NCBI RefSeq assembly: GCF_900099925.1
Contig: NZ_FNDE01000007.1
Span: forward strand, 1 to 64,000
Reading direction: 5' to 3'
Source: Aneurinibacillus thermoaerophilus
GTDB lineage: Bacteria; Bacillota; Bacilli; Aneurinibacillales; Aneurinibacillaceae
DNA length: 64,000 nt
Below the pieces are notes generated by a model. It searched no databases and was not told where the DNA came from. It saw only the letters and a list, made by a program, of their open reading frames with translations. Made by a program: the position numbers and the translations under genes. Positions 34,863 through 44,221 of the stretch are shown one piece after another (positions within the stretch are counted from its first letter, which is position 1; the number at the start of each line of letters is the position of its first letter).

Positions 34863-34893
34863 GAGAGTGGGAGAGAAGGGAGAAGGCGGGACT

Positions 34894-37203
34894 GTGAAGA
34901 AGCACACGGTGGATCAAAATTGTGGAGAGATTGAGTCTTCTTATTTTTACAGGGAACGACTTGCGCATATTTTTCGAGATAGTTTCCAGTTTATATTCTC
35001 CCCTTTCTTTTTGGCAGATAGGGGATGGGTGTTTGTAGCAGACCGTCATGGCTATGTAGTTGCTTGTGAAAAAGCAGGTCAGCCGGAGTTTGATGTGAAG
35101 CCGTTTTATCCGTTGCATCCAGAAAAAATGTATATTCAGAACAATGTGGAGGAAGATAGCCGGACGGTGTGTGTTCCGGTGCTCCAGGATGTTTGGTTTC
35201 CTGGCTATATAGGAGTTGTGCTGCCTGCGTGTATAGAAGAAAGGTGTGCGTTTTCGTTTTTGCAGGGAATGACGGCTGTTTTCCGCCTCATACAGGAGCA
35301 ATACATCAGCAAGACCATTTCTTCATGTATTAAAGCCGTAAGCCAGAATATGGGCCTGAATAGTGCTATGCAGACGATTGTCCGGCGGTTTGCCGAAAGC
35401 TTGTACCAAGTCGAATGCATTGCAGTCGTATTTGATGAAGAACAGGATGGAATGGTGCCGCATTGGTCTTCGAGTGAGCAGAATTGGCTGTGTCGGGAGA
35501 CCATGAAGATGCGCAATCTTAGAAAAATATATGAGCAGATCGTTTCGCAGTTCTCCGTGGAGCGTAATGTTTTGCGTAGGGAAGATATTGATATACAAGG
35601 ACTATTGGAGTTAGAAGAGCTGTCTGAGGCGGATTGGTTAATTTCTCCTTTTGACTATAATGACAAAATTATCGGATTTTTAGTCGTATTGCGTGATAAG
35701 AACTTTCCATTTACAGACGAGGAGCAAAAATTTATCTTTCGTTTCACGAAAGCCCTTGGCCCTTCCGTTCACAACTCTGCCCTTTATATGCGTGTTCAAC
35801 GCGACGAACAAAAACGGAGCATGATGTTTGAAATTACAAAAAAACTCCATTCATCTATCAATGTGAATGATGTGTTGCATGCCGTGATAGAAAATACAAA
35901 AAAACTGTATCCGGAAATGCAGGTTGATTTATGGCTGTCCCATGATTCATTTTCCACGAAGCTGCCCGTCAAGCCATTTTCTTTTTCGACCGGAGAAAGC
36001 AAAAGCAATGTAAGTGCCCGAGCGTTTATGGAAGCACGAACGATCATCGTGAAATCCTGGGGGAAGCGCAGTGTGACGTTAGCCGCTCCGCTCAGGGGCA
36101 AACAAGGGGTTTATGGTGTGTTGGAACTTTACAGCGACAAGCCGATATCTCTTCCAGCGCGAGAGATAGAGTATATTACGATGCTGGCAGATACGGCAGG
36201 TAATGCATTCGAAAATGCTCAGCTTTATCAACAATCCTGCCATTTAATCAAAGAATTGTTGCTCATTGATGAAATGACGCGGCAACTCAATAAGAATATT
36301 AAGCTTAACGATTTACTTACATTTATCACGCGTAAGCTGACGGAGACGTTTCGTACGGAACATTGCTGCATTTTTTCTTGGTCAGAAGAAGAAAAAGCAT
36401 ATGTCGCGTGTGCGTCCACTGGACAGGAAAACGTTCCGCTTGTTTTGCGGATTCCGGAAGCAGGCAAACTTCATGATTTGTTTGTCAAAAAGGAGTCGAT
36501 TTTAATTGCGGATACGAAAGAAATAGATTCACTTCTCCCGTCTTTTTCTTGTCGGTCGTTAATGGCTGTGCCGCTTATGGGTAAAGGTCAAGTAGAAGGA
36601 GCCATTTTTCTGATAGATTCTCAGCCAAATCGTTACACATTCGATGATTTTAAGCGCCTGGAGATGTTGGCCCGTCATGTGAAAGTCGCGGTGACGAATG
36701 CTTCCCTGCATGCCGAAGTCGAGCGAATGGTGATAACGGATAATTTGACGGGCCTGTATAATCGAAAGTATTTATATGACTGTATCCGTCATTCCCAGCA
36801 GCGTGACATCTGTGGCTCACTTATTTTAATTGATGTGGATTACTTTAAGAATATTAATGATACGTATGGTCATCAGATTGGCGATGAAATTTTGATCCAA
36901 GTGGCAGAAGTGCTTGTTGCTTCAATTCGCACATCTGATGTTGCCGCTCGTTGGGGCGGAGAAGAGATGGCTGTATACTTGCCAGCGGTACAGGAAGATA
37001 TTGCCCACCAAGTAGCGGAGCGGTTACGCATGAATACAATGAGCAGCACGAGACCGGCTGTTACGATTTCCTGCGGGGTGGCTACCTGGTTGAAAGAAAA
37101 CGGCATTCCGAGCGTCGAACGATTGTTCCAGCAAGCGGATGAGGCTTTATATCGCGCGAAGCATAGCGGGCGTAACCAGGTTTGTTTGGCAGGAAAAGTA
37201 TGA
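34894..37203 (+). CDS. dgcP: GAF-GGDEF diguanylate cyclase (DgcP/YtrP-like)
   Basis: 769 aa. Three or four GAF-like modules (about 10-130, 140-290, 310-440, 450-600) precede a GGDEF domain (about 605-765) with active site RWGGEEMAVYL, DVDYFKNINDTYGH metal site and DNLTGLYNRKYL. It makes cyclic di-GMP. B. subtilis DgcP (YtrP) has the same layout and is encoded near refsZ-ezrA. The A-site GGEEM is a functional variant. An RxxD inhibitory motif is not obvious. Start GTG 34894 is preferred over 34867 because GGGAG/GGCGGG lies upstream. Confidence 0.92.
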   Translation: MKKHTVDQNCGEIESSYFYRERLAHIFRDSFQFIFSPFFLADRGWVFVADRHGYVVACEKAGQPEFDVKPFYPLHPEKMYIQNNVEEDSRTVCVPVLQDVWFPGYIGVVLPACIEERCAFSFLQGMTAVFRLIQEQYISKTISSCIKAVSQNMGLNSAMQTIVRRFAESLYQVECIAVVFDEEQDGMVPHWSSSEQNWLCRETMKMRNLRKIYEQIVSQFSVERNVLRREDIDIQGLLELEELSEADWLISPFDYNDKIIGFLVVLRDKNFPFTDEEQKFIFRFTKALGPSVHNSALYMRVQRDEQKRSMMFEITKKLHSSINVNDVLHAVIENTKKLYPEMQVDLWLSHDSFSTKLPVKPFSFSTGESKSNVSARAFMEARTIIVKSWGKRSVTLAAPLRGKQGVYGVLELYSDKPISLPAREIEYITMLADTAGNAFENAQLYQQSCHLIKELLLIDEMTRQLNKNIKLNDLLTFITRKLTETFRTEHCCIFSWSEEEKAYVACASTGQENVPLVLRIPEAGKLHDLFVKKESILIADTKEIDSLLPSFSCRSLMAVPLMGKGQVEGAIFLIDSQPNRYTFDDFKRLEMLARHVKVAVTNASLHAEVERMVITDNLTGLYNRKYLYDCIRHSQQRDICGSLILIDVDYFKNINDTYGHQIGDEILIQVAEVLVASIRTSDVAARWGGEEMAVYLPAVQEDIAHQVAERLRMNTMSSTRPAVTISCGVATWLKENGIPSVERLFQQADEALYRAKHSGRNQVCLAGKV

Positions 37204-39099: not shown

Positions 39100-39726
39100 G
39101 TGAAACGTTCACCGAAGCTTACCAAACAAAAGATTGTTGAAGCTGCTGTCGAACTGTTTGATTCACAGGGATTCGACGGTACGACAGTACGGCAGATCGC
39201 TTGTAAGGCAGGGGTGAACGTTGCGCTTATTGCCTATTATTTTAAAAATAAAAAAGGATTGCTCGAATATGTTATGGTAGAGTATTATGAGGCTTTATTT
39301 CGAAAGCTGGACGGTTGCCGCCATGACACGGAATGGGAATCTCTTTATGATTTGCTGCGCCACATGTTAGAAAGCCTCGTCCGTTTCCAAAGTGAATTTT
39401 ATCAGGTAACACGATTGATTCATCGGGAATTATCCGTAGAATCAATGCTCGGGCGGGAGATTATGAGCACTTACCTGGCCAAGCTTAAACATTATTTTGC
39501 TGCGGTGATTGAAGAGGGAGTTGAGGAAGGGGAATTTCCGCCGTTACAGGTAGAAGGCGTGGTCATTCAACTGATGGCGATTACAAGTTTTCCTTATACA
39601 TACCCGCAAATTATTCGTGAAGTATTTTATTTGGAGCCATTGGATGAACAATTCGTGGAACAGATGGTGCATTATACATATGACTTTTTACACCATATGA
39701 TGACACCGCTCAACACATTTCGCTAG
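39100..39726 (+). CDS. refsZ: TetR-family regulator of Z-ring positioning, RefsZ-like
   Basis: 208 aa. TetR HTH (TKQKIVEAAVELFDSQGFDGTTVRQIACKAGVNVALIAYYFKNKKGLL, about 7-55). The effector domain has REIMSTYLAKLKHYF and PQIIREVFYLEP segments characteristic of RefsZ (YttP). RefsZ binds motifs near the origin and affects FtsZ ring placement at sporulation. The next gene is the ezrA-like fusion, also an FtsZ regulator, as in B. subtilis. Start GTG 39100 with GGGAGGGACA upstream. Confidence 0.88.
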   Translation: MKRSPKLTKQKIVEAAVELFDSQGFDGTTVRQIACKAGVNVALIAYYFKNKKGLLEYVMVEYYEALFRKLDGCRHDTEWESLYDLLRHMLESLVRFQSEFYQVTRLIHRELSVESMLGREIMSTYLAKLKHYFAAVIEEGVEEGEFPPLQVEGVVIQLMAITSFPYTYPQIIREVFYLEPLDEQFVEQMVHYTYDFLHHMMTPLNTFR

Positions 39727-39829
39727 GTTTTTTCATAAAAAGCTTGCTTTCAAGCAGGAACTTTCTCGTTTTATACCTAATTATTATTATAATAAGATAG
39801 GTTGACTTTTCCAAAAGGAGTACGGCACA

Positions 39830-42070
39830 ATGTCATATGCAATACAACGAATGTTTCGTTTTTTTATAGCGCTTGTCGCGTCAGTTGCGATTCTGGCAGG
39901 CCCTTGTTATGCACAGGCCGCCCCAATGCCAGCCTCGCTTGATAAGCCGGTAATAGATATAAACAATGTAATGAAAAGCGAAGAAGAAAAAAAATTCATT
40001 AATCTGACGTCTGGCATGAAGCAGACGTACAAGCTGGTCGTCATCGCCGATGCCAAACCACTGACGCTTCAGCAGTACGCACAGAAACTGCTTGAAACTT
40101 TTACGATCGAAGATAAAACTATGGTCATGGTTTTGTCAGCCAGTGAGAGAAACATGGTTATTTTAAGTGGGAAATATTTCAAGGAAAATGGGATTAACCA
40201 GGAAGTGTTACAGCATAAGATGGAGCATTATTTTGAACCGTATGCGAAGCAAGGCACGCTAATGACCGGCGTTATATCGTTCGTAGAAGCGGTTGATGAA
40301 GAATTAAAAGCGTTCGCGCAGAAACAGGGAAGCGGAGAACAGGTTAAAATGGCGGGAATTTCAGCGTCTGCGGCTACTAAGGACGTTACGTCTTGGCCTG
40401 TCTGGTTGCTTGGCGGATTGATTTTATTGGCAGTCGCTTCCGTAGGAGCTGCCATGGCTTACACGAAACGTGGACGAATTTTGAAAGAAGTCGATGAAGT
40501 GGACGAATGGCGAGGGAAAGTCGCTGATCAGCTTAATTCATTTGAAATTGATAGTTCATGGAAAAAAGAACCGGGAAGAATTAAAGAGAAGTATCTGGCG
40601 ATTTTGACCTCGCTTGATGACTTAAAAAAAGATGCCATTGCCGATGTAGAACTCATCCTGGTGGATGCTGAAGAAAATCTTATGAAATTCCGTTTTAAAA
40701 GAGGCCAGGAAATTATTCAGGAAGCAAAAGATAAACTGTTCCGCATTGAAGAAGAATATCGCAATTTACATATCCGGCTGGGTAAACTTCAGGAAACATT
40801 ACAAGATATCGTTGCTTTAAAGGAGGAAACAAAGCAGCTTCAGCAGAAAAACGAACGCCGGCTGGACGAGCTGCGCATTCAATATAGCGTCTCTTTTCAT
40901 GTTTTAAAAGAGGAAATGAATCAGTTTGATCGTGAAATGCAGGCGGTGAAGCAGGCGGAAGAAAAAGGGGATTTCGAAGATGCAAGAGCTTGTTTGCAAC
41001 AAGCGGCAGAGAGTCAGCGAGCGTTGATGGATGTGATGCAAAAAGTTCCGCTTATTCGTCAGACAATCGTCAAAGATCTGGATCAGGAAATTCGACAGCT
41101 GGATGAGGATGCAAAAGAAATGGTGGCAGGTGGTTATACAAGCGGGGAAGAATTCTTTAATGCGCGCATTGTAAAAATTCGTGGAAAGTATGAAAAGCTG
41201 CCGATTTTATTCGAAGAAGGGAAAATAACGGAAGCCGAGGAATTAATTATAAAAATACGTGAAGATATTGAATCGGTCTATCAGACGATGGAAGAGATCG
41301 TGACAAACCGCCACCAGTATCGGCAGTATGTAGTCGAGCTTCCGTACTATCTTAAAGTGCTAAAGCAGGATGAAGAATATTTAGCAGGTGAATTGCACGA
41401 TCTTTCACAACGGTATTTGGTAGAAGATGGTGAAGCATTTCATTATTATCAGCAAATTCCTGCTGTTATTGCAGATATCGAAAATGCGCTGGAGCAGATT
41501 AGCGCAAGCACAGAAAAAGACAATTATGAACGACATGGTGAGACGCTAACTCAGGTGGCCGAACGCGTAAATCAGATGATGGAGCGGCGTGAGCTTGTGA
41601 TGAAAGAATTAAAAGTGTTTCGTCAGGGGGAAGTAGAGGCGCACGAAGAATTGCAGGATATGCGTGCCAGCGTTACACGGGTGGAGCAGCAGTTGAAACG
41701 ATTGCATCTGTCGAAAGTGCCGTATAGCGTTACCAGCAATATTCAGATTTGCCGTCAGGCTATTGATACGGTAGAAGAAGCACTTGGAGAAGTTCCGCTG
41801 AAAATGCAAAAAGTTGATCATGTGCTGAAAGAAGCAAAAGAACACGTTTCCGAACTGTTGGAACAAGCGGCAGAGATGATTCGTGATATCCGGTTAGCAG
41901 AAGACAAAATTCAACGAACGAACCGTTTCCGGCGCTATGATAAGGAAATTGCCAGACTTTTGCAGACAGCAGAGGACGTGTTCCGTGAAGCGGAGTACGG
42001 AGAAGCGCACGAACTGGCCGATCAAGCGTTTCGCCTTGCACAAGAACGGTATGGACTGGATGTAGAATAA
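39830..42070 (+). CDS. ezrA: TPM-EzrA fusion, septation ring regulator with extracytoplasmic TPM domain
   Basis: 746 aa versus about 560 for EzrA. Residues 1-32 are a signal peptide (cleavage near AQAAP). About 35-170 is a TPM (TLP18.3/Psb32/MOLO-1) domain: VIDINNVMKSEEEKKFINLTS, YAQKLLETFTIEDKTMVMVL, a tail matching ...G..T.GVISFVEAVDE. A transmembrane helix follows (about 188-210, VWLLGGLILLAVASVGAAMAY). The remaining 530 residues are EzrA: ILKEVDEVDEWRGKV, DAEENLMKFRFKRGQEII and long spectrin-like coiled coils to the C-terminus. EzrA inhibits FtsZ assembly away from midcell. The TPM part would sit outside the membrane and the EzrA part inside. RBS AAAGGAG. Own terminator. Follows refsZ. 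Confidence 0.88.
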   Translation: MSYAIQRMFRFFIALVASVAILAGPCYAQAAPMPASLDKPVIDINNVMKSEEEKKFINLTSGMKQTYKLVVIADAKPLTLQQYAQKLLETFTIEDKTMVMVLSASERNMVILSGKYFKENGINQEVLQHKMEHYFEPYAKQGTLMTGVISFVEAVDEELKAFAQKQGSGEQVKMAGISASAATKDVTSWPVWLLGGLILLAVASVGAAMAYTKRGRILKEVDEVDEWRGKVADQLNSFEIDSSWKKEPGRIKEKYLAILTSLDDLKKDAIADVELILVDAEENLMKFRFKRGQEIIQEAKDKLFRIEEEYRNLHIRLGKLQETLQDIVALKEETKQLQQKNERRLDELRIQYSVSFHVLKEEMNQFDREMQAVKQAEEKGDFEDARACLQQAAESQRALMDVMQKVPLIRQTIVKDLDQEIRQLDEDAKEMVAGGYTSGEEFFNARIVKIRGKYEKLPILFEEGKITEAEELIIKIREDIESVYQTMEEIVTNRHQYRQYVVELPYYLKVLKQDEEYLAGELHDLSQRYLVEDGEAFHYYQQIPAVIADIENALEQISASTEKDNYERHGETLTQVAERVNQMMERRELVMKELKVFRQGEVEAHEELQDMRASVTRVEQQLKRLHLSKVPYSVTSNIQICRQAIDTVEEALGEVPLKMQKVDHVLKEAKEHVSELLEQAAEMIRDIRLAEDKIQRTNRFRRYDKEIARLLQTAEDVFREAEYGEAHELADQAFRLAQERYGLDVE

Positions 42071-42332: not shown

Positions 42333-43862
42333 TTATGCCGAATCGCGGATTCCTGTGTTGGCCTTGACTAGGACTTCGTCAAATTTCGCATCGCTTTCGC
42401 GGCGGCCAAAGATAATAGCGCCGAGATAAGCAGCAATGAAACCGGCCGGCACGGAAATGAGCGCCGGGTTAGTCAGGCTGATTAGTGGCGTGCCGACGAG
42501 GATTGCTTTGCCTGGTGTTGGATCAAGCACATTTGGACTTACTACAACAAGAATAAGCGCTGTGAAGAGACCGACAAGCATGCCGGTAATGGCGCCTGCC
42601 GTGTTAAATCTTCGCCAGAAAATCGTGTACATAATAACCGGCAGATTTGCGCTGGCGGCTACGCAGAACGCCAACGATACGAGGAACGCTACGTTCATTT
42701 TTTGCGCGAACAGAGCCAAGATAACAGATGCAACTGCAACGCCTACGGAAGCATAGCGGGCAGCCAGCATTTGTTCCCTTTCCGTGGCTTTGCCTTTACG
42801 GATAATATGGCTGTAGAAGTCGTGCGCGAACGCGGAGGCCGCCGCCAAAACAAGGCCCGCTACTACCGCTAGAATGGTGGCAAAAGCAACCGCTGCGACG
42901 AATGCCATCAAAAAGTCGCCGCCCAATTCACGCGCAAGCAGCGGAGCCGCCATGTTTCCAGCTTTGTTTGCCTCGATAATCGTTTCGTTGCCGACAAACG
43001 CGGCAGCACCGAAGCCGAGGAAAATCGTCATAATATAGAATAGGCCGATGAGCCAGGTTGCGTATACAACTGATTTTCGTGCGGTTTGCGCGTCCTTCAC
43101 TGTAAAGAAACGAATCAAGATATGCGGCAGTCCCGCTGTTCCAAGGACGAGTGCAATGTTAATGGAAATCGTATCAAGTCCGTTTTTATACTTGACGCCT
43201 GGATTCAGGAACGCGTCGCCAAGCGGTGTTGCTTTTTTCATGTGATTAAACATTTCCACAAAGTTAAAGTGAAATTTCGCGAATACCATTAGGGAGATGA
43301 TGAACGTACCAACCATAAGCAGTATTGCTTTTACGATTTGTACCCAACTGGTGGCTGTCATGCCTCCGAAGATGACGTAAATTGTCATGAGCGTGCCGAC
43401 AATCAATACAGAGGTGGTGTAATCCAGGCCGAGCAAAAGCTTAATTAATGCGCCTGCGCCTACAAGTTGAGCAATCATATAAAAAATGGAAATGGCAATG
43501 GTGCTTAGCGCCGCCACCCCGCGAACTTTTGCATTGTTGAAGCGGGCGGCAATCATGTCTGCCATCGTGTATTTGCCAAGGTTGCGGAGCGGTTCGGCAA
43601 CGATGTACAGAACGACCAAATATGCGACGAGATAACCTATGCTGAAGAAGAAGCCGTCAAAGCCGGTCAACGCGATGGCACCAGCGATGCCGAGGAACGA
43701 AGCGGCCGACATGTAATCGCCGGCAATCGCTAGACCGTTCTGCCATCCGGTCAGGCCGCCGCCTGCTGTGTAGAATTCGCTCGTCGTATTGGTTTTTTTC
43801 GAAGCGTAGTATGTGATAACAAGCGTTGCAGCCACGATGAGAAGAAAGAATGTAAATGCCAT
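42333..43862 (-). CDS. sodium:solute symporter, acetate permease type (ActP/YwcA-like)
   Basis: 509 aa with 13 predicted membrane helices. SSS-family pattern: YASKKTNTTSEFYTAGG, WQNGLAIAGDYMSAASFLG (sodium site), GLPHILIRFFTVKDAQTAR, LAFCVAASANLPVIMYT. This and the adjoining DUF485 gene match the E. coli yjcH-actP and B. subtilis ywcB-ywcA arrangement, so acetate or short monocarboxylates are the likely substrate. Its ATG shares one base with the DUF485 stop. Functionally coherent with acsA and PHB synthesis. Confidence 0.92.
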   Translation of the reverse strand: MAFTFFLLIVAATLVITYYASKKTNTTSEFYTAGGGLTGWQNGLAIAGDYMSAASFLGIAGAIALTGFDGFFFSIGYLVAYLVVLYIVAEPLRNLGKYTMADMIAARFNNAKVRGVAALSTIAISIFYMIAQLVGAGALIKLLLGLDYTTSVLIVGTLMTIYVIFGGMTATSWVQIVKAILLMVGTFIISLMVFAKFHFNFVEMFNHMKKATPLGDAFLNPGVKYKNGLDTISINIALVLGTAGLPHILIRFFTVKDAQTARKSVVYATWLIGLFYIMTIFLGFGAAAFVGNETIIEANKAGNMAAPLLARELGGDFLMAFVAAVAFATILAVVAGLVLAAASAFAHDFYSHIIRKGKATEREQMLAARYASVGVAVASVILALFAQKMNVAFLVSLAFCVAASANLPVIMYTIFWRRFNTAGAITGMLVGLFTALILVVVSPNVLDPTPGKAILVGTPLISLTNPALISVPAGFIAAYLGAIIFGRRESDAKFDEVLVKANTGIRDSA

Positions 43863-44221
43863 TACTGTTGCCCCCTTTTTTGGAGCTCTTCGATAATTTC
43901 ATCGGCGAGTTTGTCAAAAGAGGAGGCTTTGCGGGTATAAATCATACATAATGCCCATGTCATAATAAATTGGCCGAAAGCATACAGCCACGCCCAAGTG
44001 ATAGAGCCAATCGCGGGAATGTTTAATATGTTGCTATATGACGTCAGAATTGGAAGTGTGTAATAAAAAATTATGAAAAAGACGCACATAGGAACGATAA
44101 AATTTCTTTTCGCTTGTATCAAACTTTTGAATTTTTTACTTTGAGCTATAGCTGTATAGTCAATGTTTTGCTCTTGGATTCTTCCCGTGCCGGAAGATTT
44201 GTTTTGTGCGAGGTTTTCCAT
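43862..44221 (-). CDS. DUF485 membrane protein, symporter partner (YjcH/YwcB-like)
   Basis: 119 aa. A hydrophilic N-terminus (1-38) then two membrane helices (NFIVPMCVFFIIFYYTLPILTSY and WLYAFGQFIMTWALCMIYT) and a charged tail, the DUF485 pattern. Role probably in assembly or activity of the neighbouring symporter. RBS GGGGTGA; first gene of the pair. A cre-like site lies about 75 bases upstream. Confidence 0.92.
   Translation of the reverse strand: MENLAQNKSSGTGRIQEQNIDYTAIAQSKKFKSLIQAKRNFIVPMCVFFIIFYYTLPILTSYSNILNIPAIGSITWAWLYAFGQFIMTWALCMIYTRKASSFDKLADEIIEELQKRGQQ

Follow-up and report, generated by a model that had tools for sequence, protein, structure and literature searches.

An EzrA with a predicted extracytoplasmic TPM domain in Aneurinibacillus thermoaerophilus, and the probable loss of this domain from the EzrA of model species

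EzrA, a regulator of the division ring, is described as a one-helix protein that acts only from the cytoplasm. The ezrA gene of Aneurinibacillus thermoaerophilus encodes a protein of another build, in which a signal peptide and a TPM domain come before the membrane helix. This raises the question of whether the outer domain was added to a conventional EzrA or whether the conventional EzrA has lost it, and of what such a domain would do at the division site. We analyzed the gene within a window of 64,000 nucleotides, meaning the whole stretch of DNA considered here (Table 1). Our reading, to which we give a probability of roughly 0.65, is that the protein preserves an original two-sided EzrA, that the fusion existed before the TM-only form, and that the TPM domain couples ring regulation to the septal wall machinery. 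A literature search, mostly of papers outside subscription, turned up none that brings EzrA and the TPM domain together.

Table 1. Features of the ezrA locus in the window. Residue numbers refer to the 746-aa TPM-EzrA.
Feature	Position	Strand	Basis and remarks
GAF-GGDEF diguanylate cyclase, dgcP-like, upstream syntenic gene	34867..37203	+	
refZ, upstream neighbour of ezrA, GTG start	39100..39726	+	NF037937, 214.5 bits (cut-off 180)
Shine-Dalgarno sequence AAAAGGAG	39813..39820	+	9 bases before the ATG of TPM-EzrA; read from sequence
ezrA, gene for TPM-EzrA	39830..42070	+	single frame, 746 aa; ATG start
Signal peptide, residues ~1-31	39830..39922	+	hydrophobic segment 4-22; likely SPase I site between AQA and AP
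TPM domain, residues ~36-165, predicted extracytoplasmic	39935..40324	+	PF04536 above cut-off; fold match to 2KW7, 5ANP, 3PVH, 8C7I
Low-complexity linker, residues ~166-189	40325..40396	+	pLDDT <50 at 168-190
Transmembrane helix, residues ~190-212	40397..40465	+	hydropathy; followed by YTKRGR (positive inside)
EzrA region PF06160, spectrin-like repeats, predicted cytoplasmic	40421..42028	+	Pfam; hmmsearch to 4UXV, E 2e-94
QNR motif Q695-R-T-N698-R699	41912..41926	+	alignment; IQRTNR at 694-699

A first-pass annotation of this DNA had proposed a TPM-EzrA fusion, and the decisive check, matches to both Pfam families on one chain, bore it out. PF04536 (TPM_phosphatase) matches residues 44-157 at 25.8 bits with the full chain (cut-off 22.1) and residues 43-157 at 28.0-29.3 bits with the N-terminal part alone, and PF06160 (EzrA) matches residues 198-733 at 228.6 bits (E 1.6e-67, cut-off 39.6), spanning model positions 4-541 of 557. 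The NCBIfam EzrA models match at 241.8 bits, under their equivalog cut-off of 556, and the window protein is therefore a divergent EzrA; we label it a divergent EzrA variant because those models were built on TM-only EzrAs. An AlphaFold2 model from 18 homologues has a mean pLDDT of 85.8 and a pTM of 0.46, so that the local folds are good but the model does not fix how the domains are placed relative to one another. Foldseek with this model returned EzrA 4UXV first (E 2.3e-7, probability 1.00) together with the TPM structures 2KW7, 5ANP, 2KPT, 3PVH and 8C7I (probability 1.00). A profile search of the PDB found 4UXV, 4UY3 and 5ANP, the last a TPM protein. When the TPM part was searched against the PDB as a single sequence with phmmer, no TPM was matched, whereas the profile and fold searches did find TPMs.

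Hydropathy identifies only two hydrophobic segments in the chain (~4-22 and ~191-209). An AxA motif with its AP follows the first and YTKRGR follows the second, and the protein is therefore read as N-out/C-in. This topology prediction places the TPM domain on the outer face of the membrane and the spectrin-like arch in the cytoplasm, which agrees with the order proposed before (signal peptide, outer TPM, helix, inner EzrA). In the AlphaFold model the transmembrane helix is joined to the helix of repeat 1 of the EzrA part. The predicted departure from the textbook one-helix EzrA likewise stands, and amounts to ~190 extra N-terminal residues with a TPM domain.

Does the remainder of the chain qualify as EzrA? 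The known EzrAs (PF06160; B. subtilis 4UXV, S. aureus 4UY3) have a transmembrane helix only at the N-terminus, whereas the window protein has a signal peptide and TPM domain before its helix, and the two are divergent at ~20-24% identity. They have in common the full-length spectrin-like cytoplasmic region and the QNR motif, features that the studied EzrAs need, as well as an N-out membrane helix, a refZ-linked locus and a single copy. The upstream gene, earlier spelled refsZ, is refZ by NF037937, and the GAF-GGDEF gene fits dgcP, so the assignment to the ezrA locus was sound. In the whole 3.66 Mb genome this is the only EzrA that PF06160 finds above cut-off. Together, the locus, the copy number and the motif show orthology with EzrA. 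On the other side, a sodium:solute symporter of the acetate/monocarboxylate type (42333-44221, minus strand), with a DUF485 gene upstream of it, is convergent with ezrA. Nine tRNA genes (Asp, Gly, Arg, Pro, Met, Trp, Ser, His, Met) are clustered at 18-902 of the window.

We surveyed 61 relatives and, family by family, 76 Bacilli genomes (families are given as codes). Long EzrA frames with an N-terminal extension occur in f1, f2, f3, f13, f20, f21, f23, f24, f25 and f26, so that homologues with the same extension are present across about ten family-level groups of Bacilli, which rules out a local oddity of one genome. All 29 fused-type homologues have an EzrA match and 19 have a TPM match at E <= 0.01; the remaining TPM parts, although divergent, align in the corresponding position, except that G038 (f26) has a TPM too divergent to be aligned, or none. 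Residues D43 and G114 are invariant or near-invariant across families, and most fused EzrAs retain the QNR motif. The gene directly upstream of the fused gene is refZ in f1, f2, f13, f20, f21 and f23, as it is upstream of ezrA in several TM-only families. A profile scan of contigs gave nine named loci, from Aneurinibacillus species, Ammoniphilus species and two MAGs. In the f23 proteins (L021, L022) an Ala/Glu-rich low-complexity insert of ~100-150 aa replaces part of a spectrin repeat, and the EzrA match is split in two pieces.

TM-only EzrAs of ~570 aa are found in about 23 families. One of them, G027, scores 749 bits against the structure of B. subtilis EzrA and another, G023, matches that of S. 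aureus, which anchors the family codes to model species. We found no EzrA in a sample of 149 genomes of Bacillota other than Bacilli. Two genomes of Aneurinibacillaceae itself live without the TPM domain, and it is therefore not indispensable. G009 has a TM-only EzrA of 561 aa. G010 (L013/L114; taken as Aneurinibacillus sp. Ricciae_BoGa-3, a complete chromosome) has lost the TPM fold in frame and retains the signal peptide and membrane helix; a search of the rest of its genome found no TPM. Its EzrA is a natural, ready-made deletion of the domain.

Trees of the two parts bear on whether the domain was gained or lost. The TPM-less EzrAs do not form one clade in the EzrA-region tree: the f32 EzrA joins the fused proteins of f20 (100/99), a family of the same order, and this group adjoins a large TM-only clade (100/97-99). 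In the EzrA-domain tree the TPM-less EzrAs require two changes in all bootstrap trees. A single clade of all TM-only EzrAs was rejected (AU p = 0.000345) under a constraint that covered the TM-only EzrAs and left the two Aneurinibacillaceae losses uncounted; it was rejected again, at a moderate AU p of 0.0138, for a reduced set that was aligned in another way and lacked ten rows that were long or of odd composition. The TPM-less group is broken up by one TPM-less genus only, f32 with two genomes. The TPM-region tree, of only 128 columns, unites every TPM of TPM-EzrA in a single group (99/98), separate from the stand-alone and coil-type TPMs, and the f20 fusions therefore acquired no new TPM. 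Trees of both parts indicate one fusion that was vertically inherited.

Also inside the TPM-EzrA group fall two stand-alone TPM-TM proteins of EzrA-less f9 genomes, as if their cytoplasmic half had been lost. These proteins of 215-218 aa (L097:5829-6482 and L098:5179-5823, both on the minus strand) have a TPM domain and a C-terminal transmembrane helix, and a rhomboid-like gene follows the one in L097.

The root was placed with distant TPM-TM-coil proteins, which have a signal peptide, a TPM domain, one helix, a long helical cytoplasmic part and a Gly/Ser/Trp-rich tail. Of eight members sampled, every one matches TPM and five match PF06160. They align with TPM-EzrA in register over the TPM, helix and cytoplasmic part (hhalign E 1e-40) and have a weaker profile match to TM-only EzrA (E 1e-19), and when one member was modelled with AlphaFold, the PDB entry that matched best was EzrA 4UXV (E 8e-3, probability 1.00). 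The QNR motif is absent from them, and a PspA-like gene, recognized by sequence motif, adjoins the outgroup gene at three of seven loci inspected (L086, L087, L093). One genome, G052, has two TPM-TM-coil paralogues alongside TPM-EzrA. Proteins with a TPM followed by a long coiled coil have been described (PMC11237479), and our outgroup fits the YdjH-type proteins of that study by Ravi et al. The YdjH-type proteins of PspA operons, such as B. subtilis ydjH, share with the window protein an extracytoplasmic TPM and one transmembrane helix, and their long forms have a cytoplasmic helical region that can be aligned with EzrA. They differ in the missing QNR motif, the Gly/Ser/Trp-rich C-terminal tail and the PspA neighbour, whereas the window TPM-EzrA has a refZ neighbour and no such tail.

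Rooted in this way, the tree has fused forms at its base and TM-only EzrAs nested among them. The root depends on a distant outgroup with long branches, and coiled-coil regions align easily; because long branches meet at the root, its position among fused forms is support and not proof. The opposite history would start from a TM-only EzrA to which the TPM domain was added once, to be lost later in f32 and the two Aneurinibacillaceae genomes. A single gain is simple and stand-alone TPM domains are common in the same genomes, yet we regard this history as unlikely: the f20 fusions and f32 lie beside the main TM-only clade, so that this clade has fused forms all around it unless the root falls inside, and the outgroup of the same plan is itself TPM-fused.

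The first-pass annotation had called the TPM an added domain. Since fused forms are widespread in Bacilli and surround the TM-only EzrAs, their TPM parts form one group and the outgroup is also fused, this direction is probably backwards. The trees support a fusion that arose once, before TM-only EzrA, with loss of the TPM in the ancestor from which the EzrAs of Bacillus/Staphylococcus/Streptococcus type descend and, further, in three or more other lineages. What the model species have, a TM-only EzrA, is thus probably a derived, TPM-less form. We lean slightly towards a further step, in which EzrA would go back to a membrane protein of TPM-TM-spectrin build and of the PspA-anchoring kind; the first EzrA would have been two-sided, a link between the outer face of the envelope and the Z-ring, of which the EzrA of B. 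subtilis, S. aureus and streptococci would be a truncated descendant.

We compared the TPM part among eight Aneurinibacillaceae genes, where it is 39-72% identical to that of the window. Codon differences are mostly at third positions, dN is ~0.18-0.48, and dS is saturated in most pairs; in the one pair where it could be estimated, dS is 3.21 and the ratio 0.10. These codon comparisons show purifying selection on the TPM part. The domain might still be a structural or export leftover of little function on a protein that works simply as EzrA: it has been lost at least three times, one Aneurinibacillus deleted the fold in frame and kept the signal peptide and helix, and it evolves faster than the EzrA part. 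This seems improbable to us, given that about ten families retain the TPM with its conserved D43 and G114 and that nonsynonymous change in it is far below synonymous change.

If the domain is functional, it could be an active enzyme outside the cytoplasm, either a phosphatase or a nucleotide hydrolase, with a substrate to modify at the division site, as the Pfam name TPM_phosphatase would have it; phosphatase or ATPase/ADPase activity is reported for other TPM proteins in works referenced in PMC11237479. The stand-alone TPMs (TLP18.3, Psb32, BA41, PG_0361; PF04536) share the fold and the Pfam match with the window TPM, but they are soluble or differently anchored. They also carry a G...NNG loop, present in 83-100% of the stand-alone TPMs sampled, whereas it is absent from the window TPM, as from all TPM-EzrAs and coil-type TPMs. 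The missing loop makes the TPM of TPM-EzrA more likely a binding module than an enzyme, although as evidence against hydrolysis it is suggestive only, as the catalytic residues are not settled; among the papers searched there was none on TPM active-site residues. Ravi et al. (PMC11237479) and the lipocone paper argue against a phosphatase function, and we consider an active hydrolase quite improbable.

The reading frame itself gives little room for doubt. The AAAAGGAG motif has a similar counterpart, AAAGGAG, in Aneurinibacillus relatives, and neither in-frame ATG, at residue 145 or 174, is preceded by a Shine-Dalgarno sequence. With the third-position variation in the TPM, this upholds the start at residue 1 and led us to reject an internal start just ahead of the membrane helix. 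That two genes were merged by a sequencing or annotation error, or that translation normally begins before the helix, is refuted by the intact fused frame in many independent genomes and by the good ribosome site at residue 1 with none internally, and we give it almost no weight.

How might a two-sided EzrA work? The first spectrin-like repeat of EzrA contacts FtsZ (PMC4243239) and its QNR motif contacts FtsA (PMC12288466). The B. subtilis TPM protein YdjH interacts with PspA and YdjI, which require it to be recruited to the membrane, and cells that lose YdjH have disturbed shape and wall synthesis under alkali stress (PMC8581546); TPM has been proposed as a chaperone-like assembly domain (PMC11237479). 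The first-pass annotation had suggested that the outer part could be a sensor of wall or lipid state. By analogy with YdjH, we infer that the outer TPM may couple an envelope state or partner to the FtsZ/FtsA ring. The inner arch would bind FtsZ and FtsA at midcell as in B. subtilis, and the outer TPM would be a module for assembly or docking that binds, probably without catalysis, either a protein of the envelope or a lipid-linked partner. Regulation of the ring would thereby be linked to the machinery of the septal wall, to its state or its arrival. In TPM-less lineages the job may have been taken over by other contacts of EzrA, or may not be needed.

A conserved outer domain on the EzrA chain in about ten families offers a way into the question of how the Z-ring is connected with what happens outside the membrane. 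TPM-EzrA makes the origin of EzrA testable, and links a division regulator to PspA-associated envelope-stress proteins. If the rooting holds, the evolutionary reading would be of interest to division specialists, and the EzrA of model species may be a reduced form.
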